A stretch of DNA of 64,000 bases from a gamma proteobacterium symbiont of Taylorina sp. (GTDB lineage: Bacteria; Pseudomonadota; Gammaproteobacteria; GRL18), in the NCBI GenBank assembly GCA_025655455.1, contig JAHXIV010000037.1, forward strand, positions 186,001 through 250,000. Reading direction: 5' to 3'. The position numbers and the translations under genes were made by a program. Shown here piece after piece: positions 48,265 through 63,747 of the stretch; positions within the stretch are counted from its first letter, which is position 1, and the number at the start of each line of letters is the position of its first letter. The notes under the pieces were generated by a model. That model did no database searches, was not told where the DNA came from, and saw only the letters and a program-made list of their open reading frames with translations.

Positions 48265-49008
48265 ATGAAGAATAACTTAATGATCAAACTAAAAGCCTTT
48301 CTTATTCACTTCAGCGGCAGCGCCATCATTCTAGGGGCTTTTTTGTCCATTGTTTTCTTTTTCTGGTACCCCTCGCCTTATTTTGAGTTAGAAGGTGTTT
48401 CAAGTTTAATCACACTCTTAATTCTCAGCGTATTAATAGCTGGGCCCTTACTCACAGGGGTTGTTTATCAGCCTGGGAAAAAAGGGATGTTATTTGATAT
48501 TATTGTGATCATCATCGTTCAGATTATTTTTCTTGGCTATGGAATGCATACGATTTATAACGAGCGTCCCCAATATATTGTCTTTAATGAAGGTTGGTTT
48601 TATGTTGTTCAAGCTTCTGCGATTGATCAGAATAAACTCCAGAACGAGGTATTAAACAATTCATTTTTTGCATCACCTAAGCTTGTTTTTAATCTTGTTC
48701 CCAGTGATCCAAAAGAAAAGTTAACGATTGTTAAAGCAATGTTTAGCGGAGGTAAAGAAATGCACCACCATGCTGAATTTTACCGCTCCTACAACCATTA
48801 TATTTCTGAAATTACTACTACAAAGCAACAGACCCTGTCAAAAATCAAAAAAAAATATCCTTCCACATTAAAAACCATCAATAAATTAGAAATTAAAGAA
48901 AATATCAATCATCAACAATTCATCTATTTTCAGATTGAAGGAAAAAAAGAAAAAGGAATAATGGTTTTGAACAAGCGATCAGCCTTGCCCCTGGGTGTTA
49001 TTTATTAA
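48265..49008 (+). CDS. TfpX/TfpZ-like type IV pilin accessory protein
   Basis: This 247-residue protein has four hydrophobic segments in the first 110 residues and a periplasmic C-terminal domain. The start MIKLKAFLIHFSGSAIILG and the FNEGWFYVVQASAID segment fit the TfpX/TfpZ family, small inner-membrane proteins found next to pilA that aid assembly of particular pilin types. Here it lies upstream of the pilin, whereas it usually follows it. An alternative start is the ATG at 48280. Confidence 0.8.
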   Translation: MKNNLMIKLKAFLIHFSGSAIILGAFLSIVFFFWYPSPYFELEGVSSLITLLILSVLIAGPLLTGVVYQPGKKGMLFDIIVIIIVQIIFLGYGMHTIYNERPQYIVFNEGWFYVVQASAIDQNKLQNEVLNNSFFASPKLVFNLVPSDPKEKLTIVKAMFSGGKEMHHHAEFYRSYNHYISEITTTKQQTLSKIKKKYPSTLKTINKLEIKENINHQQFIYFQIEGKKEKGIMVLNKRSALPLGVIY

Positions 49009-49166
49009 CATAAATTTATCAAATGTTACATAATGACATTACAAATAAAGAAAAAACATAGAAACTCATTCTAATAAATTACAAATAATATTATACAAGC
49101 TCAAAAAATTTTCAAAATGTATATTACATCACACTCAATTCATAATAAACGGGAATAATTCATTAT

Positions 49167-49182
49167 TGGTATTAAATTTGCT
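49167..49182 (+). promoter_or_regulatory. Sigma-54-type promoter for the pilin gene
   Basis: TGGTATTAAATTTGCT has the invariant GG (49168-49169) and GC (49180-49181) separated by ten bases and the TTGCT -12 core. Sigma-54 control is well known for type IV pilins. The predicted transcript start is about 55 bases before the pilin ATG. It lies in the 240-base gap after the accessory gene. Confidence 0.55.
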
Positions 49183-49248
49183 TAACTCATATCAGCAATA
49201 AAAAAGTATCTATTTAAAATTAATAAATTCATCTATTGGAGAACTATT

Positions 49249-49785
49249 ATGATGATTAGAAAAATACAAAAAGGTTTTACCTTAATCGAATTAATGATCG
49301 TTGTGGCGATCATTGGTATTCTGGCCGCAGTTGCACTACCTGCTTATCAGGACTATATTGTTAAGGCAAAAGTATCTGAAGTAATTCTGGCAACCAGTGC
49401 CTGTCGTACGACTATTACAGAAGTTTATCAATCAGCTCGTACTGCTGCTGTAACACCTGGATATAATAATTGGGGTTGTGGCGAACAAGTCAATAGTACT
49501 CAATACACATCTAATCTGAGAACAGATGATAATGGTGTTATTAGAATACAAGCTCGACTCATTGGTAATGTTGAAGTGGATGGAAGTGATTTAATGTTAG
49601 TTCCTGAATCCAGCTTGGGTACCAATGCAACATGGCTTGCAGGAGTAGCTTTAAGTGGTTTCAGATGTACATATCCTGGCGCCACCAATGCACCAGCAGC
49701 TGTAACTGCATCAGCTGACGGAACTGGTTCTACAGTTGCTAACTCTGCAATAGCAGCAAAATATCTACCTGGTTCATGTAAATAA
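49249..49785 (+). CDS. pilA: Type IV major pilin
   Basis: The leader MMIRKIQKG is followed by the processed mature start [27 protein letters not shown], with the Phe+1 and Glu5 that PilD and assembly need. The body (178 residues total) has two Cys pairs: one around the central SACRTT and NNWGCGE, and the C-terminal FRCTYPG to GSCK pair that closes the D-loop. GGAG lies seven bases before the first of two adjacent ATGs. No other pilus genes are in the window. Confidence 0.95.
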
Positions 49786-49973: not shown

Positions 49974-51110
49974 TTACAAAGCCTCAAAAAATTCTTTTAT
50001 CATACTAATAATATAATTTTGTTCTTCTATAGTAATTTCATAATAAACCGGAATACGAAGCAAACACTCACTTATTTTATCCGTTACAGGAAGACTTTTC
50101 TCAACTATTCTACTTATTTTTTTTCCTTCTGGTGATGAATGTAAGGGGATATAATGAAAAACAGAATTCACACCACGATCTGATAAATAAGCAATTAATT
50201 GGTTTCGTTCATTATTAGTACGACATATTAAAGCAAATAAGTGATAGTTCACTTCATTATGTGAAAGTATTTTTGGCAACCTGATATAACCGGAATCTTC
50301 CAGTGATTTTAAATGTAACTGATAATATTCAAGCGCTTTTCTTCTGCGTTTAATAATTAATTTTAAGTTTTCAAGTTGGGCATATAAGAAAGCCATCTGT
50401 AATTCAGATGGCAAATAGGAAGATCCTTTATCAACCCATGTATATAAATCAGTTTCCTTTCTAAAAAATGCTTCGCGATTAGTGCCTTTTTCACGAATAA
50501 TTTCTGCCCTTTTAATAAAATCGGGATTGTTAATTAATAATGCTCCTCCTTCACCACACATAATGTTTTTTGTTTCATGAAAAGAGAAACAACCTAAATC
50601 TCCAATAGTTCCTGCATGTTGGCCATTTTGGTATGCGCCTACACTTTGTGCTGCATCTTCAATAACAAATAAACCATGTTCATGAGCAATTGACATGATA
50701 GAGTTCATTTCACAACTTTGCCCCGCATAATGAACTGGAATAATGGCTTTAGTTTTATCACTAATACACATTGGAATTTTAGCTTCATCCAGATTATAGG
50801 TATCATCTCTAATATCACAAAAAACAGGTACTGCCCCTCGTAATACTACAGCATTAGCTGTAGACACAAAGGTATAAGAAGGCATAATCACTTCATCACC
50901 AGGTTCCAGATTAATAAGCATACAAGCCATTTCTAAAGCTGCAGTACATGAGTTTGTCATTAAGACTTTATTGGCAAGGGTGATTTTTTTTAAAAGTACT
51001 TCGCATGATTTGGTATAAAAACCATTGCCGCTTATAGAACCTTTCATTACACTATCTGCTATGTAATATAACTCTTTTCCGGAAATAAAAGGTTTATTAA
51101 AAGGAATCAT
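49974..51110 (-). CDS. wecE: WecE-type dTDP-4-amino-4,6-dideoxygalactose transaminase
   Basis: This is a DegT/DnrJ/EryC1 PLP aminotransferase of about 378 residues. The N-terminus MIPFNKPFISGKELYYI follows WecE (RffA), which makes dTDP-4-amino-4,6-dideoxy-D-galactose. The PLP Lys lies in CFSFHETKNIMCGEGGAL and PSYTFVSTANAVVLRGA is typical. It is oriented away from the pilin and stands apart from the later operon. Its product could be the amino sugar that other genes here modify. The ATG at 51110 is preferred over a TTG at 51122. Confidence 0.88.
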   Translation of the reverse strand: MIPFNKPFISGKELYYIADSVMKGSISGNGFYTKSCEVLLKKITLANKVLMTNSCTAALEMACMLINLEPGDEVIMPSYTFVSTANAVVLRGAVPVFCDIRDDTYNLDEAKIPMCISDKTKAIIPVHYAGQSCEMNSIMSIAHEHGLFVIEDAAQSVGAYQNGQHAGTIGDLGCFSFHETKNIMCGEGGALLINNPDFIKRAEIIREKGTNREAFFRKETDLYTWVDKGSSYLPSELQMAFLYAQLENLKLIIKRRRKALEYYQLHLKSLEDSGYIRLPKILSHNEVNYHLFALICRTNNERNQLIAYLSDRGVNSVFHYIPLHSSPEGKKISRIVEKSLPVTDKISECLLRIPVYYEITIEEQNYIISMIKEFFEAL

Positions 51111-51269
51111 TTCTACATCCAAGAAGAGATCAATACAAGCATAATGAATAATTGAATTGAATATCCAAAGATATCCAGTTTAAAGTATGAGGAGCTATAA
51201 CTTATTAAGCTTTTATTATAGAATGATTTGATGCCAGTTTCCAATTAAGAATTTACCTGATTATTAAAA

Positions 51270-53357
51270 ATGATTTTAAAAAAAAATAATACAATTTCAC
51301 TTATCTTAATACATCTGTTTTTTCTAGCTATTTTCATTGTTTTTTCTTTTGCCAATCATGTATCAATTGATGCATTTTTTCACCTGAATATGGGTAATGA
51401 GTTTCTAAAAGATGGATTTTCATCCTGGAATGATAGTTTTAGTTTTACATTTAACGATCAGCATGTCACAGGACCACCCTATCTTTTTCAATCTTTACTT
51501 GCAATCTATGTTAACTTTGCAGGCTTAGAAAATGGCTTTATCTTATTAAGGATTACAGTTTTTTTCTTTTTTATTATTAGCCTCTATTTATTTTATAATA
51601 TTAATAATATTAGTATCGTTATGGTTTTAATAACATTACCATTTATTACTGCCACTCTCATGGATAGAATTGCTGTAAGACCCGAACTTTTTTCCTATCC
51701 TCTTTTTGTGCTTTGTTTAATTATGTATTTTAAAGCACAATCTCAATTTGATTCCAGAAGATTATTTCCAATTGCCTTATTATTTCTTTTTTGGGTTAAT
51801 TATCATATTCCAATTTTTGGTTATATCATTATTTTTGGTTTATTTGTAGAAAAAGGAATAAGGAAAATACAAACACAAGAAGATTTTTCATGGTTTTTTT
51901 GGTGCACATGGGGTTTAATTCTCTTTCTTATTGGTTTTTTAAATCCTGAAAAAACACACTTTTTTTTTGATATTCTTAACTTTGATAATGCCTGGAAAAA
52001 GTTGGTCAGTGAATTTATTTCAACTTTCAGTTATCGTTCAAAATCATTAATTTATCCAATCTTATTTTTATCCATAATTTTTACTCTCTATTTAATAATA
52101 AAAAAACAATATGGTTTATTTATCGCTAGCATTGTATTTACTATTAGTGCTCTGCAAATGTACCGACTCGTTCAAATTTATTTTATTTTCCATTTACTTG
52201 TAATCGCTTATGTATTGTCAAATTATAATATTACTATGTTAAATAGTACTATTATCCCTATTAGTAAAGCCAAAAAATATTTTTTCAAAGCTCTTATACT
52301 AAGTATCATTATATCTGGTATTTATTTTAACTTTTATATGCTGGTAAATGAGCATATAAATTCACAACGGAAGTCAACGCTGCCAATAACATTGGCTAAA
52401 TTTTTAAAAGAAAATGGTGATGGTGGAAATATTTTTAACCAGATTCAAATTGGGGGTTATTTAAGTTATATACTATCACCAAATTATAAGGTGTTTATTG
52501 ATGGGAGAACGAATATTCTATATCCAATAGAATTTGCTCGTCACTATAGAGAACTATTTTATAATTCAGAAAAATTAGAAGAAGAAATCAAAAAGTATGA
52601 TATTAAGTATGGCATTATAGCCCGAAACCCTTCTTTGTTTAGTACACTATTTAAAACTTATTCCTTTTCAATTGATTATATCGATGATCAATTTATATTA
52701 ATGCGTAAAACAAAAGCACGCTATCCACTGTCAGGTTTATTAATGCTTAAACCCGCTTGCTGGACCAGCAAGATGGAAGATGAGCTACTAATTGAAATAC
52801 ATAAAAAAACATCTTTTAGTCGAGATGAAGATGAAATAAAGGAACTACAAAGAATTTTTAATCATTATTTAACACTATCAAAAAATGAAAAAAATCATTT
52901 TATTAGGGAACTTTCCGGTTATAGAGCTACAACCTATGATTCTATAATACGCATTTTTACTTTTATCGCTATTGAAGATGAACTATACCAGACTGCTCAG
53001 GAATTGATTGAGAAGGTCAAAAGTAAAAATATTCAGGATTACATTATTGCCAGTTATATCTACCTTAAACAAGAAAATTATAGTACTGGAATAAAGATTA
53101 TAAACTTTACACTTAATACAGATTGGACAAAAAAAAATTCACCTTACTTATATCAACGCTATATGCATTTATCTGTCGTCCACAAAGTTATTATTCTAGA
53201 TTTACTCTATAAATTTAGTAGTAAGACAACATCAAAAACAAACAAGCAAATAATTTCAAGACAGATTGAAAAACTTACTAGCAATAATTTTATACATAAT
53301 GGTCAAAAAGAAAATAAATTCAATACTGTAGAGAGTCTATGCTTGTCCGATCATTAA
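51270..53357 (+). CDS. Large GT-C-like membrane protein, function unknown
   Basis: This 695-residue protein has about nine to ten membrane segments in the first 360 residues, then a hydrophilic C-terminal part with a helical TPR-like tail. The motif SIDAFFHLNMGNEFLKDG near residue 32 and the SWNDSFSFT after it match the D-x-x-x-HL-x-x-G pattern of bacterial GT-C-type membrane proteins that may use lipid-linked sugars. No precise reaction can be named. The gene is very AT-rich. It converges with the methyltransferase gene. Confidence 0.7.
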   Translation: MILKKNNTISLILIHLFFLAIFIVFSFANHVSIDAFFHLNMGNEFLKDGFSSWNDSFSFTFNDQHVTGPPYLFQSLLAIYVNFAGLENGFILLRITVFFFFIISLYLFYNINNISIVMVLITLPFITATLMDRIAVRPELFSYPLFVLCLIMYFKAQSQFDSRRLFPIALLFLFWVNYHIPIFGYIIIFGLFVEKGIRKIQTQEDFSWFFWCTWGLILFLIGFLNPEKTHFFFDILNFDNAWKKLVSEFISTFSYRSKSLIYPILFLSIIFTLYLIIKKQYGLFIASIVFTISALQMYRLVQIYFIFHLLVIAYVLSNYNITMLNSTIIPISKAKKYFFKALILSIIISGIYFNFYMLVNEHINSQRKSTLPITLAKFLKENGDGGNIFNQIQIGGYLSYILSPNYKVFIDGRTNILYPIEFARHYRELFYNSEKLEEEIKKYDIKYGIIARNPSLFSTLFKTYSFSIDYIDDQFILMRKTKARYPLSGLLMLKPACWTSKMEDELLIEIHKKTSFSRDEDEIKELQRIFNHYLTLSKNEKNHFIRELSGYRATTYDSIIRIFTFIAIEDELYQTAQELIEKVKSKNIQDYIIASYIYLKQENYSTGIKIINFTLNTDWTKKNSPYLYQRYMHLSVVHKVIILDLLYKFSSKTTSKTNKQIISRQIEKLTSNNFIHNGQKENKFNTVESLCLSDH

Positions 53358-53391: not shown

Positions 53392-54204
53392 TCACTGTTT
53401 AATAGCTATAACAAATAAACTTCCACCAATAAAATTTGGTAATAACTTATTAATCTTATTTTCAAACTTTGTAATATAAAGCAATATTTTATTAAGAATT
53501 GGATTTATTGAAATATTACTTTTATATTCTTCCGGGCTAATAGCATCAAAACTATCCTTATTCAAAAGACTCCTTAGTAATAAAAGCGGGATAATACTAA
53601 TAAAAAAATAACTTGTAGAAATAATTGAAAAACCAGCATCTTCAAGTTTAGAAATAATCTGTCTTCTTGTATAACGTCGCTTGTGACCCGCAATCGAATC
53701 AGCACGATTCCATAACCACTGGTGAGCAGGAATAGTCAAAATTATTTTTCCAGATTTAGTTAGCATTTTATATATATTTTCCAGAGCTACTTCATCCTTT
53801 TCAATATGTTCCAATACATCGAAAGCACAAACTACTTCAAATTCATCCTCAAAAGGTGAGCGTAAAAGATCGAACTGATAACAATCTTTTAAACCATAAG
53901 AATTTGCATACACTAATCCTTTAGCATGCATTTCTCCAACGGATATATTAGTATATCCGTTAAGCTTCAAATATTGGGAAACATTTCCAGTGCCTGCACC
54001 TATTTCAATTATTTTACTTGTAAAATCAATATCTTTTATCATTTGTTGTAAAATAAAATCTTTTCTACTTATAAACCAAAAATGTTCTTCCTCTACTTTA
54101 TAAATATTGTCCAAACCTTGTGAATTATAATCAGCATGATTCTTATTGGTATCATGGTGGAAAATTTTTACTCCATTTTTTTCTTTATATTCTTGTATAA
54201 TCAT
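53392..54204 (-). CDS. SAM-dependent methyltransferase
   Basis: The 270-residue protein is a class I methyltransferase. The SAM motif is IIEIGAGTGNVSQYL near residue 66, followed by FDVLEHIEKDEVALENI and IILTIPAHQWLW. The C-terminus has one hydrophobic stretch (SYFFISIIPLLLLRSLL) that could dock to the membrane. It starts exactly after the stop of the SMR-like gene and ends the six-gene operon. The substrate is probably a sugar or lipid-linked intermediate. Confidence 0.85.
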   Translation of the reverse strand: MIIQEYKEKNGVKIFHHDTNKNHADYNSQGLDNIYKVEEEHFWFISRKDFILQQMIKDIDFTSKIIEIGAGTGNVSQYLKLNGYTNISVGEMHAKGLVYANSYGLKDCYQFDLLRSPFEDEFEVVCAFDVLEHIEKDEVALENIYKMLTKSGKIILTIPAHQWLWNRADSIAGHKRRYTRRQIISKLEDAGFSIISTSYFFISIIPLLLLRSLLNKDSFDAISPEEYKSNISINPILNKILLYITKFENKINKLLPNFIGGSLFVIAIKQ

Positions 54205-54576
54205 CTAAGAATTATTACTCAATAAATAAACTCCTGAAACGATTAATAATAATGCTATAATTTTAATTAAAGTAAATGATTCTTTTAAGAAAAAAATTGC
54301 AAAAATGCTGGTTAATACAGCAAGACCTCCGACAATAATTGGGTAAGCATTAGAAATTTCAAATTTAGTCATTGCAGCCATCCAGAAAAGTGAGGCTATA
54401 AAAGCAGCAACAAAACCACTAAATATATAGGGATCAAAAACCAGCTTTATTAAAAAAACTATTTTTTCAATAGTTGGTTCTGGCAAGGCAGCAATTCCAT
54501 TCATTCTCCACTTCATAATCAACTGTCCGTAAACTGTAAAAATAATTGTCCCTGCAATATAAAAATAACTCACCAT
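54205..54576 (-). CDS. Small SMR/EamA-type membrane protein (possible lipid-sugar flippase)
   Basis: The 123-residue protein has four membrane segments and the look of an EamA/SMR family half-transporter. ArnE and ArnF, which flip the L-Ara4N-polyprenyl phosphate carrier, belong to the same type and size class. It sits between the ATP-grasp and methyltransferase genes, 16 bases after the former. A role in flipping the polyprenyl-linked sugar made by the GtrB-like enzyme is inference from the operon. Confidence 0.75.
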   Translation of the reverse strand: MVSYFYIAGTIIFTVYGQLIMKWRMNGIAALPEPTIEKIVFLIKLVFDPYIFSGFVAAFIASLFWMAAMTKFEISNAYPIIVGGLAVLTSIFAIFFLKESFTLIKIIALLLIVSGVYLLSNNS

Positions 54577-54592
54577 TATATCCTATAAAAAA

Positions 54593-55789
54593 TCATATTA
54601 TTTTCACCTGAATTAGTTCAGATAAACACTTTGTTATATCCAACATCTCATCCATAGAATCAAACTGAAGAAAAACTACACCTACTTTTTGAGATAAATA
54701 ATTATCAATGATATCTCCAGATTTCCACCAGAATAAACTATCATAAATATATTTTCTAACTTCTTCAGAAATAGTTACATCTGCAATGATGCCATTTTTA
54801 TTACTCATAACACAGTGACGACCACAAAAACCTGTTTGTTTAACCTCTGGAAATTTAGAACAGTCTAATCCTGCTTCTGCACGAACAATCCAATCACTCC
54901 AATTAATATTAGTTGAGTGGTTCACAGGATAGGGATATAAATCACCAGAACAACGTCTGGTTATATCAATAATAGTTGCTTCCTGACCATTTGCTAAATA
55001 TTGTATATGAAAAATACCATCGGTTAAATTCAACATTCCTGCAATTTTCTCAACAGCATTAACTAATGTCGATGAATACTTCTCTACATCAATCGCGGGA
55101 GCAGCAGAGGACGAAACATAAAATGGATTTAGATAAGAATATTCATTGTCACTAAAAGAAAAAACCACTTTCCGGTTAAGTAGAAAAGAGCTAAAACTAT
55201 GCTGAGTACCAATGAAAAATTCTTCTACAACAATTCGTTTCTCAACTGAAAGTTCAAAAGCGGACTCAATACCTTTTACATATTCATCCTGACTCCAGAC
55301 TGTTGATACACCTTTTCCACCAGTGAGATCAACTGGTTTTATAATTAATGGGAAAGAATATTTATCTATTTCATCCAGTGCTGATTCAATAGTATCAAAA
55401 CAGTCCGCACAGGGTGTCGGGATATTATATTTTTGGGAAAAGCGTTTAAATGAATCCTTATGATGTAATAATAAAGCGATATCATAGGAATCATGTCCCG
55501 CTAATCCCATTTTTTCAGCAACATAAGCCGCAGTAATTGCGCCAAAATCATTAGCACAGGAACAGATTGCATCTATACTCAGTTTTTTCGCTAAATCCAG
55601 AGTTTCATTTTTATTTGAATAATCTGCAGAATAATACTCATCTGCATATGAGTGTCCTATGAGTTCTGGTGCATTACCCGTTGTAATAACATGAAAACCT
55701 AATTCTTTTCCTGCTTTTATCAGAGGAATATCTGAATGACTTCCATTAAGAATAAGTAATTTTTTCTTAATTGTCATTAATAGGCTCAT
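54593..55789 (-). CDS. ATP-grasp ligase, substrate unknown
   Basis: The 398-residue protein is an ATP-grasp enzyme of the carbamoyl-phosphate-synthase/PurK-like type, which activates a carboxylate as acyl phosphate to form an amide or similar bond. LIIKPVDLTGGKGVSTV is the nucleotide-binding loop, RIVVEEFFIG is the second loop and IIDITRRCSGDLYPYP holds the metal-binding residues. The N-terminal KKLLILNGSHSDIPLIKAGKELG is the usual pre-ATP-grasp fold. It overlaps the end of the aldehyde dehydrogenase gene by 23 bases. The acceptor cannot be told. Confidence 0.85.
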   Translation of the reverse strand: MSLLMTIKKKLLILNGSHSDIPLIKAGKELGFHVITTGNAPELIGHSYADEYYSADYSNKNETLDLAKKLSIDAICSCANDFGAITAAYVAEKMGLAGHDSYDIALLLHHKDSFKRFSQKYNIPTPCADCFDTIESALDEIDKYSFPLIIKPVDLTGGKGVSTVWSQDEYVKGIESAFELSVEKRIVVEEFFIGTQHSFSSFLLNRKVVFSFSDNEYSYLNPFYVSSSAAPAIDVEKYSSTLVNAVEKIAGMLNLTDGIFHIQYLANGQEATIIDITRRCSGDLYPYPVNHSTNINWSDWIVRAEAGLDCSKFPEVKQTGFCGRHCVMSNKNGIIADVTISEEVRKYIYDSLFWWKSGDIIDNYLSQKVGVVFLQFDSMDEMLDITKCLSELIQVKII

Positions 55790-57269
55790 AATGTATCCAA
55801 GTAGTTTTTAGATAACTATATTCATCAAAAGCATAAATAGATTTGTCTTTACCTATACCAGATTCTTTTATACCACCAAACGGTACGCTATTATCATCAT
55901 CACCATAACTGTTAATATGTACAATACCCGCCTGTAATTGTCTGGATACCCAGTATGCTTCATCACTATCATTGCTCCAAATTGATGCAGCTAAACCATA
56001 TTTGCTATCATTAGCAATCGATACCGATTCCTGTATCGAGTTTGAACCAATAACGAGCAACACAGGGCCAAAAATCTCTTCCTGGGCAAGAATAGAATGA
56101 TTATTTTCCTGAACAAAAATAGTGGGTAAAACGTAGCTGCTATTGGGGTGCATATTTTTTGCTGTGCTGCTTGAATATTTTTTAGCTCCTGATTGTATGC
56201 CCAGTTCAATATAAGTCTGAATCTTATGCTGTTGTTCCTTACTCACAACACAACCTACTTCACTTTCTATATTAAATGGGTCATTAGGGATATAATTTTC
56301 TAATTCACGAATTAATAACTCAACAAACTTATCTTTAATCTCGTTAGCAACAATGGCTCTTGAGGGTGCTGAACAGATTTGTCCTTGATTATAAAACATA
56401 TTTTTTGCTAAAACTTTGGCTGTTTTAGGCAGATCAGTACATTTTTCTGAAACAATAAAGGGGCTTTTACCTCCACATTCAAGTCCTACTTTTTTCATAT
56501 TGGATTGACCTGAGTATTGTAAAATCTTTTTGCCAACTTCCGATGACCCTGTAAAAAAAATGCCTGAAATATCAAGATGAAGAGCCAAAGCTTTTCCTGC
56601 TGTTTCTCCAAATCCTGTGACCACGTTAAAGACACCATCAGGTATCCCTGCCTCTTTTGCCAGACGGGCAACCAACAAAATTGAAAATGAGGATTGTTCT
56701 GCAGGTTTGACAATAGTAGAGTTCCCCATTAATAGCGCTGGAGCTAATTTCCACATGGATACCACCATGGGATCATTCCAGGGCATAATGAGTGCAACAA
56801 CTCCTAATGGCTCCCTTGTAATACTTGCAAATGCATCTGCTCTCGGAGGGATTGCATGATCATAATATTTATCAATACATTCAGCAAAATAACGTAAGGC
56901 TTCTATTGCTTTTGGGACTGAATCATTATAATAATTTTTGAATGCTCTACCTGTTTCAAGTGTATCCAGCAAAGCCAGTTCTTCATGATGCAGCAGCATT
57001 AAGTCAGCTAAACGATATAAAACCTGTTTTTTTTCCTGTGGGGATTGATTACACCAGATTTTTGATTCAAAAGAGCTTTTAGCAGCAGCTACTGCAATAT
57101 TAACATCACCCTGATTACAAGCACTCAAACCGGAAAGGTCACGACCATCAACTGGACTCACCTTATTGATAATATTCATATCAATTGAATTAACATACTC
57201 ACCATTAATAAATGATCGTTTTTCTATTTCTAATGCATTAATTTTATTGATAATATTATTTATATTCAT
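55767..57269 (-). CDS. Aldehyde dehydrogenase family protein
   Basis: The 500-residue NAD(P)-dependent dehydrogenase has the catalytic Cys in NQGQICSAPSR, the general-base Glu in LECGGKSP, and the cofactor loop FTGSSEVGKK. PWNDPMVVSMWKLAPALLMGNS is the usual middle segment. Housed in a glycan operon, it probably oxidises an aldehyde made by a partner enzyme, which would supply the carboxylate for the ATP-grasp ligase; that link is inference. It overlaps the ATP-grasp gene. Confidence 0.9.
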   Translation of the reverse strand: MNINNIINKINALEIEKRSFINGEYVNSIDMNIINKVSPVDGRDLSGLSACNQGDVNIAVAAAKSSFESKIWCNQSPQEKKQVLYRLADLMLLHHEELALLDTLETGRAFKNYYNDSVPKAIEALRYFAECIDKYYDHAIPPRADAFASITREPLGVVALIMPWNDPMVVSMWKLAPALLMGNSTIVKPAEQSSFSILLVARLAKEAGIPDGVFNVVTGFGETAGKALALHLDISGIFFTGSSEVGKKILQYSGQSNMKKVGLECGGKSPFIVSEKCTDLPKTAKVLAKNMFYNQGQICSAPSRAIVANEIKDKFVELLIRELENYIPNDPFNIESEVGCVVSKEQQHKIQTYIELGIQSGAKKYSSSTAKNMHPNSSYVLPTIFVQENNHSILAQEEIFGPVLLVIGSNSIQESVSIANDSKYGLAASIWSNDSDEAYWVSRQLQAGIVHINSYGDDDNSVPFGGIKESGIGKDKSIYAFDEYSYLKTTWIHYEPINDN

Positions 57270-57308
57270 AATTACAATACTATTTTCACCGGTAAAGTTA
57301 GATTTAGC

Positions 57309-58439
57309 TTATATAAAACGATCAAATTCATCAACAATAATGATATCTTTCCCCTCTTTTATTGTCTGTAACATATTGTTTACCTCCAAATTTGATTCAT
57401 GTCTCAGACAATGAAAAGTACAATCTTTACTAGCATCAAGTCGATCCATCACATTTTTACGTTGTTGACTATGCCACATCTCAGAAAATCCCATATTATT
57501 TAGATTTCCAATTTGCATATGATCTTTTCCACGCCAATAAGGGCAGACAAAGGTTCCTGAAGGACACACCAGGGTCCTAAGTTCTGTTGCAGGACAATGG
57601 ATATAATTTTTTTCTTGCTGTAACTGGCTCCCTTGCAATGAATAATCTAAGTTGATTGCCTTCATTACAGAAAATGTATCAGTGGTTAATTCATCTAAAC
57701 GTGAAATTTCTTCCTTGGCTCTTTGCATAATTGTTTGATCATGTATCATCAAAGCATGATCAATGCCTTCTCTAAACTGATAGCTGGGCTTGACTTCAAA
57801 ATAATCACAACCAATATCTCTTGCAAGCACAGCTGCTTTATATATTTCATCTATATTTGAGATAATGCCCTGACCATCTCTAGGTGTTTGAATCAGATAG
57901 GAATAACCCAGTTTGCCTGTTTTTACTTCAGCCAGTTTCCTCATGTTTTCAACAATACTGTCAAATTTCGATTTACCTCCTTTTGAAGGCCTTAGTATCT
58001 TAAAGGTTTCTGTAGTGCCTGCATCCATTGATACACGAGTCCAACTCGAATATTTGGCAATCGTCTCTAAATATTTATCAATAAAAGTACCGTTAGTCGT
58101 AATACCAATATGAATATCATGTTCACCAAGATAATCCATAAACTCACCTACAGCAGGATGAGCTAAAGGTTCCCCTCCACCGATAAGAATAACCCCTTTG
58201 ACACCATTTTTATAAAACTCTTCACCAAGCTGTAAGAGACGTTCATTAGAAAAACGATTTTTTGTTTTCATAATATCTTCACTAATACAACCAGGACAGG
58301 CTAAATCACAGGCTTCTGTAGTGTCAAGCTCAATAATCAATGGAGTTTTACTGGAACCACTCGACCAATCTGTATTTTTTATTGCCTCAATGACAAAAGG
58401 CTGATGCAATTTATCCAGCAAGTTCATTTTTTTTGGCAT
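57309..58439 (-). CDS. Radical SAM/SPASM protein
   Basis: The protein has the radical SAM cluster motif CDLACPGC (CxxxCxxC) near residue 45, GVILIGGGEPLAHP as the GGEP motif, and a C-terminal SPASM-type Cys cluster (CPATELRTLVCPSGTFVCPYW and CTFHCLRH) that should hold one or two extra iron-sulfur clusters. SPASM enzymes usually act on peptides or sugars. The ATG at 58439 is preferred; the frame extends 11 codons to 58472, overlapping the glycosyltransferase gene by 26 bases. No precursor peptide gene is visible beside it. Confidence 0.9.
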   Translation of the reverse strand: MPKKMNLLDKLHQPFVIEAIKNTDWSSGSSKTPLIIELDTTEACDLACPGCISEDIMKTKNRFSNERLLQLGEEFYKNGVKGVILIGGGEPLAHPAVGEFMDYLGEHDIHIGITTNGTFIDKYLETIAKYSSWTRVSMDAGTTETFKILRPSKGGKSKFDSIVENMRKLAEVKTGKLGYSYLIQTPRDGQGIISNIDEIYKAAVLARDIGCDYFEVKPSYQFREGIDHALMIHDQTIMQRAKEEISRLDELTTDTFSVMKAINLDYSLQGSQLQQEKNYIHCPATELRTLVCPSGTFVCPYWRGKDHMQIGNLNNMGFSEMWHSQQRKNVMDRLDASKDCTFHCLRHESNLEVNNMLQTIKEGKDIIIVDEFDRFI

Positions 58440-58446
58440 AAAATAA

Positions 58447-59382
58447 TTACTCTTGAAGAAATGTTGTTTCATGAATGATATACAAAGGTCGTTCTTTCAC
58501 CTCACTATAAATTTTTCCTATATAAATTCCAACCATTCCAATCACACTGATAATCATACCTGATAAAAAAAACAATGAAACAATGACACTTGTCCAACCT
58601 TCTACGGCCTGAGACCAGAAGATATAACGTAAAATTAATGATAAGGCATAAACAGATGAGAATAATGAACATAAAAACCCAGCCTTAACCACTAGTAGCA
58701 ATGGCTTATTTGAATGAGACAATATATGACTAATGGCTAAATTAAATCGCTTTCTAAAATCATAACTTGATGCACCATTCACTCTTAAGCTATGTTCAAT
58801 ATTAATTTCAGCACGTCTGAATCCAACTAAAGTAACCAGTAAGCCAAATGATCTATCTTTTTCTTTGTATTTTTTTACCTGTTCAATCACACTCTTCGAA
58901 TATATCCCAAAATTAGCAATCCTTTCATCTAAAGTTTGATCTGAAAGGTAGTTAAATACAATATAGAATAACCTTGATGTTAATTTTGTAACAAAATTAT
59001 CCTTTCTATTTTCTCGCACACCAACAACCTGTTCGTAGCCTTCTTGTGCTTTATTATATAGTTTTATAATCTCTTCCGGCTGATCTTGTAAATCACAATC
59101 CATCACAATAACCCAATCACCCCACGCATAATCCAAGCCTGCTGCAATGGCATAATGCTGACCAAAGTTTCGTGAAAGATTAATACCCTTTACTCTATTA
59201 TCCTGCTTCGCTAATTGTTGAATAATTTTCCAGGAATTATCAGGACTACCATCATTCACCATAATAATTTCAAAATCTTCTGTAATAGCAGATAATGATT
59301 TATTAAGCCTCTGATAGAGCTGTTCTAAACACTCATAACAGCCATAGACAGGAGTCACTACGGAGATATGGGTTTTAGACAT
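58447..59382 (-). CDS. GtrB/ArnC-like polyprenyl-phosphate glycosyltransferase
   Basis: This 311-residue GT2 enzyme starts with VVTPVYGCYECLEQLYQRL and has the DxD-type motif VMDCDLQDQPEE and INLSRNFGQHYAIAAGLDYA, as in dolichyl-phosphate mannosyltransferase, GtrB and ArnC. Two C-terminal membrane segments (about residues 228-255 and 262-288) anchor it. It should move a sugar from a nucleotide donor to polyprenyl phosphate. It is the first gene of the six-gene operon that runs to 53392. Confidence 0.88.
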   Translation of the reverse strand: MSKTHISVVTPVYGCYECLEQLYQRLNKSLSAITEDFEIIMVNDGSPDNSWKIIQQLAKQDNRVKGINLSRNFGQHYAIAAGLDYAWGDWVIVMDCDLQDQPEEIIKLYNKAQEGYEQVVGVRENRKDNFVTKLTSRLFYIVFNYLSDQTLDERIANFGIYSKSVIEQVKKYKEKDRSFGLLVTLVGFRRAEINIEHSLRVNGASSYDFRKRFNLAISHILSHSNKPLLLVVKAGFLCSLFSSVYALSLILRYIFWSQAVEGWTSVIVSLFFLSGMIISVIGMVGIYIGKIYSEVKERPLYIIHETTFLQE

Positions 59383-59471
59383 TTAGATAACCTGTTATTT
59401 GTAAATGGGGAATTGTGTTATTATAGAGTGTAAAAGAAAAAAATAAAAATTAATTTTTGCTGGATGTTATT

Positions 59472-60221
59472 ATGTGGAATGGTCAAAAAGTATCAGTAAT
59501 ATTTCCCACTTATAATGAAAAAAATTCTATCCGCGCTGCCATTGAAGACTTTCAAATGGATAGTATTGCCGATGAAATCATTGTAGTCAATAATAATGCA
59601 GCTAATGGTACCAGCGAAGAAGTTAAAAAAACCTCAGCTCGTGAAATATTTGAAACAACACAGGGTTATGGCGCAGCTATTCAGCGGGGATTTGAAGAAG
59701 CAACAGGTTACTATATTATCGTTTCAGAGCCGGATGGAACATTTCAGGGGCGGGATATTATTAAACTTCTCTCTTATGCCAATGATTTTAATGTTGTGTA
59801 TGGAAGCAGAACACTTAGAGAGCTTATATGGGAGGGAGCCAATATGTGTATTTTCCTTAAATGGGGAAATTATGCAGTGGCAAAGCTCATGGAGGTTCTT
59901 TTTAATACCATTTCACTCACCGATGTTGGTTGCACTACACGATGTATTACCCGACCTGCCTTAAAACATATTCAACCCTATTTTACTGTCAATGGTAGTT
60001 TTTTTGGCCCTGAAATGATGCTGCTCTCTATTCAGAGTAAAATGAAAATAATACAAATTCCGATTAATTATACAAAGCGGGTAGGATCATCCTCTGTTAC
60101 AGGCAATAAAATACTTGCTTTTTTTCTTGGTTTACGGATGATCAGGTTGATTTTATCTTTCCGCTTCAGAACATGGTTTCAATTATCTAAACTTAAGCAA
60201 TTTGATCGGAAAAACATCTAG
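59472..60221 (+). CDS. Family 2 glycosyltransferase
   Basis: This soluble GT2 protein begins MWNGQKVSVIFPTYNEKNSI and has ADEIIVVNNNA and SEPDGTF in place of DxD, and an ending with one hydrophobic region. GGA seven bases before the ATG at 59472 supports this start; the open frame begins with a TTG at 59457. It is divergent from the GtrB-like gene and starts a plus-strand group of three. Sugar and acceptor are unknown. Confidence 0.88.
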   Translation: MWNGQKVSVIFPTYNEKNSIRAAIEDFQMDSIADEIIVVNNNAANGTSEEVKKTSAREIFETTQGYGAAIQRGFEEATGYYIIVSEPDGTFQGRDIIKLLSYANDFNVVYGSRTLRELIWEGANMCIFLKWGNYAVAKLMEVLFNTISLTDVGCTTRCITRPALKHIQPYFTVNGSFFGPEMMLLSIQSKMKIIQIPINYTKRVGSSSVTGNKILAFFLGLRMIRLILSFRFRTWFQLSKLKQFDRKNI

Positions 60222-60225
60222 GAAC

Positions 60226-61215
60226 ATGCTCAAACAATCCTCCTATACTCATCAAAAATGTCCTATTTGCTATGAGCAACACATGAATTTCATCTATTTG
60301 GCCTACGACTTTGACAATTCAACACAACCATTTAGACTGATACAATGTCCAGAATGTGGTTTGGCCATAACTGACCCCAAACCCTCCACTGAACAATTAA
60401 ACAGCTATTATTCACAAAATTATTATGGCAGCGATGAACAAAAATTTACTGCAGTTATTGAAAAATTCACATGTTACGCAAATCATTTACGTGCTAAAAA
60501 AATTCTAGCCTTATTAAAGGAAAATAACAGTGGTTCCAATCCCATCCGTATCCTTGATATTGGTTGTGGTCGGGCAAACTTATTACTAGAATTCAATAAA
60601 ATGGGATGTGAATGTCATGGTGTTGAGCGAAGTGCATTTCAACGATCAGAAAAATATGATGGCATACATTTCTACCAAAATACCTTCCATTTTGAAGACA
60701 ATTATTTTGATGCCATAATCATCTGGCATGTATTAGAACACTTGCATACACCATTTAATATATTAGATGATATTGAACGAACTTTAAAACCAGGAAAACC
60801 ATTAGTCATTGCGGTACCAAATTTCTCCAGCCTGCAAGCCAGAATATTTCGTTCTCATTGGTTTCATCTGGATATTCCCAGACATTTATTTCATTTTGGG
60901 AATGATAACTTACTTAAAACGTTAAAATCCAGAAGTTTTACGATAGAGCATTTAACGACATTATCATTGGAACAAAATATATTTGGATTTATTCAAAGTG
61001 TGTTTAATGCAATATATTTTTTAGGCAAACCCAACAGTTTTTATCAAATATTAAAAAAACATCGAATTCACTCATACCCTATCAAATATACCATTTGGCT
61101 GGCAGCAGCTATTGTTTTGCTACCTATTGCTTTTCTGGAAACCATGTTAACACATATCAGTGATAAAGGCGCCAGCCTCATTATTATTGCCAAAAAATCA
61201 ATTAAAGACAGGTAA
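60226..61215 (+). CDS. SAM-dependent methyltransferase with N-terminal zinc-ribbon
   Basis: A CPICYE/CPECGL pair near the N-terminus (two CxxC motifs about 40 residues apart) should bind zinc and precedes a class I methyltransferase domain with RILDIGCGRANLL and IIWHVLEHLHTPFNILDDIERTL. The C-terminus has a hydrophobic helix. Such proteins occur in glycan clusters and methylate sugars. The ATG at 60226 is preferred; a TTG at 60202 overlaps the preceding GT2 gene. Confidence 0.85.
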   Translation: MLKQSSYTHQKCPICYEQHMNFIYLAYDFDNSTQPFRLIQCPECGLAITDPKPSTEQLNSYYSQNYYGSDEQKFTAVIEKFTCYANHLRAKKILALLKENNSGSNPIRILDIGCGRANLLLEFNKMGCECHGVERSAFQRSEKYDGIHFYQNTFHFEDNYFDAIIIWHVLEHLHTPFNILDDIERTLKPGKPLVIAVPNFSSLQARIFRSHWFHLDIPRHLFHFGNDNLLKTLKSRSFTIEHLTTLSLEQNIFGFIQSVFNAIYFLGKPNSFYQILKKHRIHSYPIKYTIWLAAAIVLLPIAFLETMLTHISDKGASLIIIAKKSIKDR

Positions 61216-61216
61216 C

Positions 61217-62986
61217 ATGATGATGAACTTAAAAAATAAGAAAAGTTTACCTTCTTTTAATCATTCAATAATGAATTGGCTACTAATATTCATTCCAATA
61301 ATACTACTTGGGATATTTCTTAGAATATACTTACTACCAGAACAAATATTAATGGATGATGAATGGCATAGCCTTGCATATGTTATTGACAAATCACTTT
61401 TTGAAATTTTTACAACTTTCTCATATCCTCCCAATACACCGTTAAATCTATACTATGCAACTTTACTTGATACCGTTGGATGGAATGAAATAACACTTAA
61501 ACTACCTTCTATTTTAACGGGAATAATTAGCCTTTTTATCTTTCCATTATTAGTAAAAAAACAATTTAATATTCGCATTACACTATTTTTTAGCTGGATG
61601 TTAGCCATATCCCCATTTCTTATATTTTATAGCCGAATGGCTCGCAGTTATAGCCCTGCAGTATTTTTTTCCTTCATTGCTATACTATGTGCCTATTACT
61701 GGATGACTACAAACAATAAAAAACATCTGCTTATTTATTTATTTTCCAGTACGATGGCTGTTTATTTCCATCTATTTTCATTAATCGGCATTGCTATACC
61801 GATTTTTATAGGATTACTGATTAAATTACAACAAAATATAGAAACAACAACAAAATTTACCTATAAAATTCTACCTGATATAAAAATGTTTCTGCTAACA
61901 TATGTTATTTTGTTGTTTTTGTTATGCTCATTATTGTTGTATCCTATGATTGAATTTATTCAACAGGACTTACATAAATTTGTTAATACAAGCGAAATAT
62001 CTGGAAAGATGTCACTCGTGACAATAAAAGAAACATTCTATCTTATAAGCGGTTCTTCCCACCTTCTTGCAGTCAGCCTCTACTCTTTTTTATTTATTTG
62101 GGGAAGCATTAGCACTTTTAAAAATAATACATTCTTTTTTATACTAATCTACAGTATATTTTTATCTTATCTATTCATAATTTCTTTGCTAAACCTATCC
62201 GGCATTCAAAACCCTATCGTATTAACAAGATATATGATTATAGTAATACCATTATCCATAATATTAGTGTCTATTGGCCTGGACAGCTTGTATAAAAAAA
62301 TACGTGATTATCCTTTACCATCATCTAAATGGATGGCAATTATCGTATGTCTTGCCTGTTTATTAATATTTGGTTTATCATCCCCCATTCTTCATACATA
62401 CCATAGCCCAAATAATTTTACTAATCATGCAGCCTATCAGGAATCATATAATCCCATCAACTTAATTCGCTCATATACCAGCAGAGTACTTGCCGCTGAT
62501 TTTCATACTGATTGGAGAAAAATATCAAATTTTTATTTCCAAATTAAGAAGCAAAAAAATATTGACACAATAATAGAATATCCAATGTTTATCGGGTTTC
62601 ATTTCAATTTTAATTATTATTACCAATATTTCCACAAAAAGAGAATTATAGCGGGATATATAACAACTCTGAAAAATGATGAAATTCCTGTTAAAAGAAA
62701 CGTTAATGGTTATTTATTGTTTGGACACGTTCTCAGTAGAATAAATGAAAAAGAAAAATTAAAATTTAATAATATGGTGGATGTATCAAATATAAATTCT
62801 GTCTTAAACAGCGGCGCTCAATATATTATTTTACATAAAAACCTTGCTTCAGAGTTTGTCCCTTACGTTGCTCGTTTAACTCCTCCAGCAAAAACAATAG
62901 AATTAAGGAATAAATATTCTCAGGCACCAGGGTTATCGCTCATCTATGAAGATGATTTTATAGTTGTCTTTGGTATTAATCAATAA
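61217..62986 (+). CDS. GT39/ArnT-like membrane glycosyltransferase
   Basis: The protein (589 residues from this start) has about eleven membrane segments. After the first one, the loop has MDDEWHSLAY, the acidic residues expected of the catalytic base in GT-C enzymes such as ArnT and PMT, and FYSRMARSYSP follows. These use polyprenyl-phosphate sugars outside the cytoplasm. It could use the product of the GtrB-like enzyme. The start is the first of three close ATGs, after AGG; the previous gene ends two bases upstream. Confidence 0.8.
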   Translation: MMMNLKNKKSLPSFNHSIMNWLLIFIPIILLGIFLRIYLLPEQILMDDEWHSLAYVIDKSLFEIFTTFSYPPNTPLNLYYATLLDTVGWNEITLKLPSILTGIISLFIFPLLVKKQFNIRITLFFSWMLAISPFLIFYSRMARSYSPAVFFSFIAILCAYYWMTTNNKKHLLIYLFSSTMAVYFHLFSLIGIAIPIFIGLLIKLQQNIETTTKFTYKILPDIKMFLLTYVILLFLLCSLLLYPMIEFIQQDLHKFVNTSEISGKMSLVTIKETFYLISGSSHLLAVSLYSFLFIWGSISTFKNNTFFFILIYSIFLSYLFIISLLNLSGIQNPIVLTRYMIIVIPLSIILVSIGLDSLYKKIRDYPLPSSKWMAIIVCLACLLIFGLSSPILHTYHSPNNFTNHAAYQESYNPINLIRSYTSRVLAADFHTDWRKISNFYFQIKKQKNIDTIIEYPMFIGFHFNFNYYYQYFHKKRIIAGYITTLKNDEIPVKRNVNGYLLFGHVLSRINEKEKLKFNNMVDVSNINSVLNSGAQYIILHKNLASEFVPYVARLTPPAKTIELRNKYSQAPGLSLIYEDDFIVVFGINQ

Positions 62987-62988
62987 AG

Positions 62989-63747
62989 CTAATTCCCTTT
63001 TCGGTTATTAAAAAAACGTTTACTATGGATAAGCCGCCATTTTGCAAGCTTGTACTCCAGGGTTACAGCTAAAACAGATAAACCATACTGTACTGAACGG
63101 AAAATACTAATAGATGAGGAATCATGCATATAACGTGTTGGACATGTCACTTCACCAATCAAATAATTTTCAGCAATAATTTGCAATAACATCTGGTTAT
63201 CAAAGATGAAATCATTACTATTCTGTTCGAGTGCTATTGTTTCAAGAACCTCTCTTGAAAATGCTCTGTATCCTGTATGGTATTCAGATAATTTATACGG
63301 GATTAGAATATTTTGATATCCTGTAAGCAACCGATTAGCAACGTATTTATAAAACGGCATCCCTCCTTTCAATGCCCCGGTACCTAGAATTCTGGATCCC
63401 ATCACACAATCAAAAACATTGCTTGAAATCAGTGAAGCCATAGCAGTTACCAGTCTAGGGTCATATTGGTAGTCAGGATGAACCATAATAACCACATCTG
63501 CACCAAGATCCAGTGCCTTTTGATAGCAAGTTTTTTGATTTGCTCCATACCCCTGGTTTGTTTTGTGGCTGACAATATAGGGAATATCAATATCTCTAGC
63601 GATATCGACAGTTTGGTCATCACTGGCATCATCTACCAGAATAACATGATCTACAATGCCATGTGGCAGTTCACGATATGTTTTAGCTAAAGTTTCTTCA
63701 GCGTTGTAAGCGGGCATAACAACAACAATATTTTGATCATTTAACAT
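62989..63747 (-). CDS. Family 2 glycosyltransferase (DPM1-like)
   Basis: This 252-residue GT2 protein has VVVMPAYNAEETLAKTY at the start, HVILVDDASDDQT, the NQGYGANQKTCYQKAL helix, and VMVHPDYQYDP in place of the usual DxD. It has no C-terminal membrane domain. It converges with the ArnT-like gene, with a two-base gap between stops. The target is unknown, probably a polyprenyl phosphate or a glycan. Confidence 0.88.
   Translation of the reverse strand: MLNDQNIVVVMPAYNAEETLAKTYRELPHGIVDHVILVDDASDDQTVDIARDIDIPYIVSHKTNQGYGANQKTCYQKALDLGADVVIMVHPDYQYDPRLVTAMASLISSNVFDCVMGSRILGTGALKGGMPFYKYVANRLLTGYQNILIPYKLSEYHTGYRAFSREVLETIALEQNSNDFIFDNQMLLQIIAENYLIGEVTCPTRYMHDSSSISIFRSVQYGLSVLAVTLEYKLAKWRLIHSKRFFNNRKGN

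Follow-up and report, generated by a model that had tools for sequence, protein, structure and literature searches.

A recurrent gene set around an ATP-grasp ligase and a radical SAM enzyme, with a proposed role in extracytoplasmic amino-sugar decoration

What does the operon at positions 53392-59382 of a 64,000-nucleotide stretch of DNA from a gamma proteobacterium symbiont of Taylorina sp. build? The stretch, referred to as the window in the following (GCA_025655455.1, contig JAHXIV010000037.1, positions 186,001 to 250,000; G000:C1:186001-250000 in our numbering), belongs to a 4.5 Mb genome with a completeness of 100% and a contamination of 0.19%. An earlier reading, here called the original prediction, had described six genes, encoding a polyprenyl-phosphate glycosyltransferase, a radical S-adenosylmethionine (SAM)/SPASM enzyme, an aldehyde dehydrogenase, an ATP-grasp ligase, a small flippase and a methyltransferase, and had proposed that the radical enzyme and the dehydrogenase make a carboxylate, which the ATP-grasp enzyme then amidates. 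Our analysis partly supports this interpretation. The gene set recurs in other genomes and extends to an aminotransferase gene, and we assign a probability of roughly 55% to the view that it encodes a route for extracytoplasmic glycosylation, comparable to the Arn pathway and to the three-component Gtr systems, which would deliver an N-acylated 4-amino-4,6-dideoxyhexose.

A sporadic but coherent gene set

All six open reading frames (ORFs) were confirmed on the minus strand, and so was their tight packing, with junctions of -26, +39, -23, +16 and 0 bases from the glycosyltransferase to the methyltransferase gene. A scan of GTDB contigs yielded three homologues of the radical SAM protein, each about 72% identical to it and all in gammaproteobacterial metagenome-assembled genomes: those of a Guaymas gammaproteobacterium (locus L003), a Thiotrichaceae bacterium (L004) and the symbiont of Bathyaustriella thionipta (L005). 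In these three loci, as in the window, the order radical SAM enzyme, dehydrogenase, ATP-grasp ligase is kept despite insertions, with identities of 66-73% for the dehydrogenase and 63% for the ligase. The inserted genes, found in L003 and L004, encode an ATPase, toxin-antitoxin-like proteins and methyltransferases. L005 presents a WecE-type aminotransferase gene followed by those for a GtrB-like glycosyltransferase, the radical SAM enzyme, the dehydrogenase and the ligase, and then by a reversed gene for a half-size EamA protein.

A phylum-wide sample added a more distant member of the Pseudomonadota (genome G322), in which the ATP-grasp, GtrB, WecE and radical SAM genes (49-60% identity) form a tight operon at the start of a contig; at E<=1e-100, this genome contains no dehydrogenase of the operon type. 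Genome G646 pairs an ATP-grasp gene (39% identical) with a WecE gene (51%) and a gene for a protein with seven transmembrane (TM) helices, and carries GtrB (54%) at another locus; neither the operon-type radical SAM enzyme nor the operon-type dehydrogenase is present. The expectation that the genes travel as a unit has thus been borne out, and because the set recurs, a chance neighbourhood can be dismissed. Across the six genomes, the content is nested: WecE, the ATP-grasp ligase and GtrB occur in all of them, the radical SAM enzyme in five and the dehydrogenase in four. The core therefore consists of aminotransferase, ligase and glycosyltransferase, with the radical SAM enzyme and the dehydrogenase layered on, and this nesting provides a built-in guide to the order of steps.

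The gene set is rare. None of the other 23 genomes in the sample of the same order has its radical SAM gene, and in the phylum sample only 2 of 398 genomes do; the carriers are unrelated bacteria from sulfide-rich and sedimentary habitats. Given this scattered occurrence and the preserved gene order, we regard the set as sporadic but coherent. A rare, patchy distribution that includes a distant lineage of the phylum is what would be expected of a horizontally moving surface-antigen island.

In the window, the functional set is not limited to the six genes of the original prediction, whose grouping holds, but reaches beyond position 53392 to a WecE-type aminotransferase gene; a gene for a nine-TM protein between the two probably belongs to it as well (Table 1). 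WecE, the nine-TM gene and the operon form a low-G+C island, with a G+C content of 0.27-0.36 for these eight genes, compared with 0.372 for the window. Promoter and terminator scans gave results near shuffle expectation and were uninformative. Families were assigned with Pfam and NCBIfam profiles, with the NCBIfam equivalog cut-offs as membership thresholds.

Table 1. Genes of the proposed set in the window
Feature	Position	Strand	Evidence and proposed role
GtrB/ArnC-like polyprenyl-phosphate glycosyltransferase (GT2)	58447-59382	-	PF00535 2.9e-31; two C-terminal TM helices; motif DCDLQDQP
Radical SAM enzyme	57309-58472	-	PF04055 8.2e-19; CX3CX2C core and four conserved C-terminal Cys, Twitch-like
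Aldehyde dehydrogenase, NAD(P)-type	55767-57269	-	PF00171 9.9e-141; nearest to KauB/PuuC omega-aminoaldehyde dehydrogenases
ATP-grasp ligase, L-amino-acid-ligase-like	54593-55789	-	GARS_A/ATP-grasp 2.2e-11; proposed amino-sugar N-acyl ligase
Half-size EamA/ArnF-like membrane protein	54205-54576	-	PF00892 5.9e-07; proposed lipid-sugar flippase subunit
SAM-dependent methyltransferase, Methyltransf_23	53392-54204	-	PF13489 1.9e-15; proposed finishing step
WecE-type dTDP-4-amino-4,6-dideoxyhexose aminotransferase	49974-51122	-	NF008687 539.6 bits (cut-off 375)
Nine-TM protein, GT-C-like topology	51270-53357	+	Hydropathy; proposed acceptor glycosyltransferase

Two further groups of genes flank the set. 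Adjoining WecE and the nine-TM gene, a TfpX/TfpZ-like pilin accessory gene, which scores under its NCBIfam cut-off, precedes one for a type IV pilin (window 48265-49785, plus strand). On the other side lies a second glycan block (window 59457-62986, plus strand, and 62989-63747, minus strand) that encodes a GT2 of the AglJ/polyprenyl-phosphate type, a Methyltransf_23 protein, a nine-TM GT-C-like protein and another GT2; it continues in L014 with two tandem, similar multi-TM proteins, further glycosyltransferases and a small VapBC-like gene pair.

The enzymes and their partners

The aminotransferase exceeds both the NF008687 cut-off (Table 1) and that of TIGR02379 (497 against 434.85 bits), and its best structural matches (4piw, 3.9e-178; 6blg) are WecE enzymes of the E. 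coli type. The lysine that binds pyridoxal phosphate, K185, lies in the motif SFHETKN, and residues S180-N186 are invariant in four homologues. In L005 and G322, WecE adjoins the GtrB and radical SAM genes. Genes for WecE-like and GtrB-like proteins and for a dTDP-glucose (dTDP, deoxythymidine diphosphate) 4,6-dehydratase above its family cut-off each occur in six of six genomes; in the window's genome, the dehydratase gene sits in an rml cluster (L063 9008-12453).

The ATP-grasp protein matches L-amino acid ligases over its full length and is classified with them; its profile matches include 4dim (1.7e-62), the L-amino acid ligase BL00235 (3vot, 1.2e-34) and BacD (3.6e-19). When we searched with this enzyme alone, we reached ten loci (L023-L032) without the radical SAM gene, nine of which contain a DegT/WecE homologue, directly adjacent in seven; in G072, rmlA, B, C and D lie alongside. 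In phylogenetic trees, a single clade (99/97) unites the ATP-grasp enzymes of the genomes with the radical SAM gene, and the WecE proteins that go with them likewise cluster together (100/100). This constant partnership points to the acylation of an amino-sugar nitrogen, and a sugar amine is therefore the likeliest substrate to be predicted for the ligase. One of the ten loci, on a Brachyspira hyodysenteriae plasmid (L024:142-6301), groups genes for a DegT protein, a methyltransferase, a SPASM radical SAM protein and an ATP-grasp protein; the last is 31% identical to that of the window, while the radical SAM protein belongs to a different family (27% identity over 104 amino acids).

Of the original description of the radical SAM enzyme, the first half stands, whereas the second is not quite apt. 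C55, C59 and C62 of the CX3CX2C core are invariant over homologues that are 41-74% identical, and in the same range only C293, C310, C351 and C355 are invariant among the C-terminal cysteines. The protein does not match the Pfam SPASM family (PF13186) and lacks the seven-cysteine motif by which SPASM domains are defined (PMC6231123). Its pattern appears closer to that of Twitch enzymes such as the dehydrogenase BtrN, in which four cysteines provide every ligand of the auxiliary cluster (PMC6231123). No named NCBIfam family was reached, all matches lying far below their cut-offs, and the solved relatives match the core alone (best BlsE, 1e-7, and MoaA, 2e-7). The original prediction was to be given up if its neighbourhood did not recur or if this protein fell into a family with a known, unrelated role; since the neighbourhood recurs and no named family was reached, neither is the case.

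More distant relatives (24-26% identity) are mostly encoded in nucleotide-sugar or lipopolysaccharide (LPS) loci, for instance in Solidesulfovibrio, in Streptomyces vietnamensis, in the LPS-core region of G067 and G593, and in a heptose-type cluster of the window's own genome, where the gene names in our numbered genomes were assigned by eye from sequence. A carbohydrate-linked substrate is therefore plausible. No match to the radical SAM protein turned up in a scan of viral contigs. On a plasmid of Streptomyces sp. BHT-5-2, a 41% identical homologue (L009:13989-15101) occurs in a stretch that contains no WecE, ATP-grasp or dehydrogenase gene, which shows only that this family also exists outside the set; its neighbours, in an unannotated part of the record, are ABC sugar-transporter-like, GHMP-kinase-like and amidinotransferase-like genes. 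In the window's genome, a nucleotide-sugar cluster separate from the operon (L079:2259-18318; G000:C12:70000-89000), with SIS, nucleotidyltransferase, epimerase, transketolase-like and carbamoyltransferase-like genes, encodes three further radical SAM proteins distantly related to that of the operon. Lastly, three of the six genomes, that of the window not among them, encode a B12-binding radical SAM protein (50-68% identical), within the cluster (L003:15057-16580), beside GtrB (G646:C65:15628-17130) or elsewhere in the genome (G322:C222:67658-69154), and strains may therefore differ in how radical chemistry tailors the product.

The dehydrogenase closely resembles KauB (6b4r, 6.9e-139), and its catalytic residues C299 and E264 are invariant. 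The glycosyltransferase fits the GtrB/ArnC type in its GT2 domain, its DxD..QD motif, its two C-terminal TM helices and its full-length similarity; its best solved relatives are the GtrB sll0501 (5ekp, 3.4e-57) and ArnC (2.9e-47), and it scores under the ArnC equivalog cut-off (186 against 529 bits). This supports the polyprenyl-phosphate glycan setting that had been proposed for the locus. A half-size EamA/ArnF-like protein would take the place of GtrA; its best NCBIfam match is ArnF (5.3e-09, 36.6 bits, below the cut-off of 99), and a 58% identical copy is encoded beside the L005 operon. The nine-TM protein has a large loop after its first helix and matched no Pfam family; G646, G768 and G322 also encode large multi-TM proteins next to WecE or the radical SAM gene. 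The methyltransferase is the least conserved member of the set.

A proposed route and its alternatives

From the observed gene content, order, recurrence and family assignments, we propose the following biochemical steps. RmlA and RmlB, whose genes are present elsewhere in the genome, would provide dTDP-4-keto-6-deoxyglucose, which the WecE-type enzyme would aminate to a dTDP-4-amino-4,6-dideoxyhexose, probably in the galacto form to judge from the curated equivalog model. As its fold family and aminotransferase partner suggest, the ATP-grasp ligase would acylate the sugar amine with a carboxylic or amino acid. As an add-on, the radical SAM enzyme could form an oxidative pair with the dehydrogenase that converts a hydroxymethyl or similar carbon via an aldehyde to a carboxylate, in either the acyl precursor or the sugar once acylated. 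By family, the GtrB/ArnC-like enzyme would move the sugar onto polyprenyl phosphate, the EamA/ArnF-like protein would flip the lipid-linked sugar, and the GT-C-like protein would pass it on to an acceptor in the periplasm; methylation may follow as an optional last step. Candidate acceptors are LPS or O-antigen and the neighbouring type IV pilin, the latter by analogy with TfpW/TfpO pilin glycosylation. It is also possible, although we would bet against it, that the oxidative pair performs a four-electron radical oxidation directly on the amino sugar, while this is linked to a nucleotide or lipid, or on its N-acyl group; this would amount to a new class of surface monosaccharide and a radical-chemistry branch of Arn/Gtr-type decoration.

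Several observations weigh against the acylated amino-sugar route. Carriers are few, and since two of them, G767 and G768, are close kin, they represent about five independent lineages. Their GtrB homologues are less similar (36-40% identity); in G767, WecE and GtrB are found on short contigs other than that of the trio, and in G768, the GtrB-like gene consists of two ORFs around an inserted reverse-strand ORF (L050:5611-7994, contig C128), although a single 36.9 kb contig carries WecE, the split GtrB and the trio, all on the same strand. Only L005 clearly shares the EamA gene with the window, and the nine-TM protein, which matches no family, is likened to GT-C enzymes by topology. KauB-like dehydrogenases mostly use free omega-aminoaldehydes, and a free metabolite may likewise be the substrate here. 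AlphaFold2 models from four-row alignments were poor (mean pLDDT, the predicted local distance difference test, of 49.4 for the radical SAM enzyme and 41.7 for the ligase), and with values <50 around its four invariant cysteines, the former is too poor to judge the geometry of an auxiliary cluster. The substrates, product, acceptor and chemistry of the route are predictions from sequence.

Among the alternatives, the carboxylate-first order of the original prediction, in which a carbon of the sugar itself is oxidized by the radical SAM enzyme together with the dehydrogenase and the ligase amidates the resulting carboxylate with an amine to give a uronamide-like sugar on polyprenyl phosphate, fares best, and we consider it unlikely. 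The operon order, the chemistry of the three families and the sugar nucleotide genes around distant radical SAM relatives are compatible with it. However, it is weakened because a ligase of the same clade, or its nearest relative, exists without the dehydrogenase in G322 and without both enzymes in G646. Moreover, the constant partner of the ligase is an aminotransferase that produces a sugar amine, and the WecE product carries a methyl group at C6 instead of CH2OH.

That the trio forms a self-standing small-molecule pathway, for instance to an omega-amino acid conjugate, and merely lies within a glycan island whose glycosyltransferase, EamA protein and WecE serve a different sugar, seems distinctly improbable. 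While insertions or contig ends separate the trio of L003 and L004 from the WecE and GtrB genes, and the dehydrogenase is KauB-like, the radical SAM, ATP-grasp, GtrB and WecE genes share one tight operon in G322 and L005, and all six genomes contain WecE-like and GtrB-like genes. We are similarly doubtful that the radical SAM enzyme works like DesII or BtrN/SpcY, deaminating the amino sugar or oxidizing one of its ring carbons, while the dehydrogenase has some other target: the enzyme's similarity to known enzymes is limited to the generic core, and the dehydrogenase, present in four of six genomes, would be left without a substrate, even though WecE directly adjoins the radical SAM gene in G322 and the Twitch-like cysteine set resembles that of BtrN (PMC6231123). 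Finally, we rejected the highly improbable maturation of a ribosomally synthesized and post-translationally modified peptide (RiPP) of the graspetide kind by the ATP-grasp and radical SAM enzymes, as well as a viperin-like defence function, since the radical SAM core resembles RiPP maturases and viperins only generically and weakly, NCBIfam matches of these kinds lie far under their cut-offs, the largest gap of 39 bases leaves no space for a precursor gene, and membrane sugar-transfer genes accompany the set.

If the acylated amino-sugar route is correct, the toolbox of extracytoplasmic glycosylation would gain an ATP-grasp ligase that acylates amino sugars and, for tailoring, the pair of radical SAM enzyme and dehydrogenase, and the predicted product, a new N-acyl amino sugar, could be sought by mass spectrometry.

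Relation to known systems

In the open-access literature, which excludes subscription papers, we found no description of a glycan system that combines an ATP-grasp ligase, an aminotransferase and a radical SAM enzyme. Homologous ATP-grasp and DegT proteins are encoded together in polysaccharide loci of Rhizobium, Bacteroides and Brachyspira plasmids and of the genomes G594, G072, G045 and G143. The ligases of these loci are, however, only 25-31% identical to that of the window, and the operon-type radical SAM enzyme and the dehydrogenase are missing; some carry a Gfo/Idh oxidoreductase, and the Brachyspira radical SAM protein is of a different SPASM family. With the SPASM/Twitch dehydrogenases of the BtrN and anSME type, the radical SAM enzyme shares the core and a putative C-terminal auxiliary-cluster site with four conserved cysteines as in BtrN, but no specific sequence similarity beyond the core.

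The Arn pathway, which synthesizes and transfers 4-amino-4-deoxy-L-arabinose (L-Ara4N), proceeds through ArnB, ArnA, ArnC, ArnD, ArnE/F and ArnT. The proposed route would share with it the formation of a 4-amino sugar by a DegT aminotransferase, N-acylation, the loading of undecaprenyl phosphate by an ArnC-type GT2, flipping by half-size EamA proteins and transfer by a GT-C enzyme. It differs in that WecE, acting on a dTDP-hexose, replaces ArnB, which acts on a uridine diphosphate (UDP)-pentose, that the ATP-grasp ligase replaces the formyltransferase, and that the window operon has the additional radical SAM enzyme and aldehyde dehydrogenase. The window proteins miss every Arn equivalog cut-off tested, that of the ArnB model (202.7 against 631 bits) along with those of ArnC and ArnF given above, and by this measure the set lies outside the Arn pathway. 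In three-component Gtr systems, which consist of GtrA, GtrB and a GT-C enzyme and include the GT136 pentofuranose systems (PMC11127046), a lipid-phosphate sugar synthase, a small membrane flippase and a GT-C-like transferase share a locus, as they may do here. By contrast, the sugar handled by the window's set would not be a common hexose or pentose, but an amino sugar that is made and tailored by genes of the same island.

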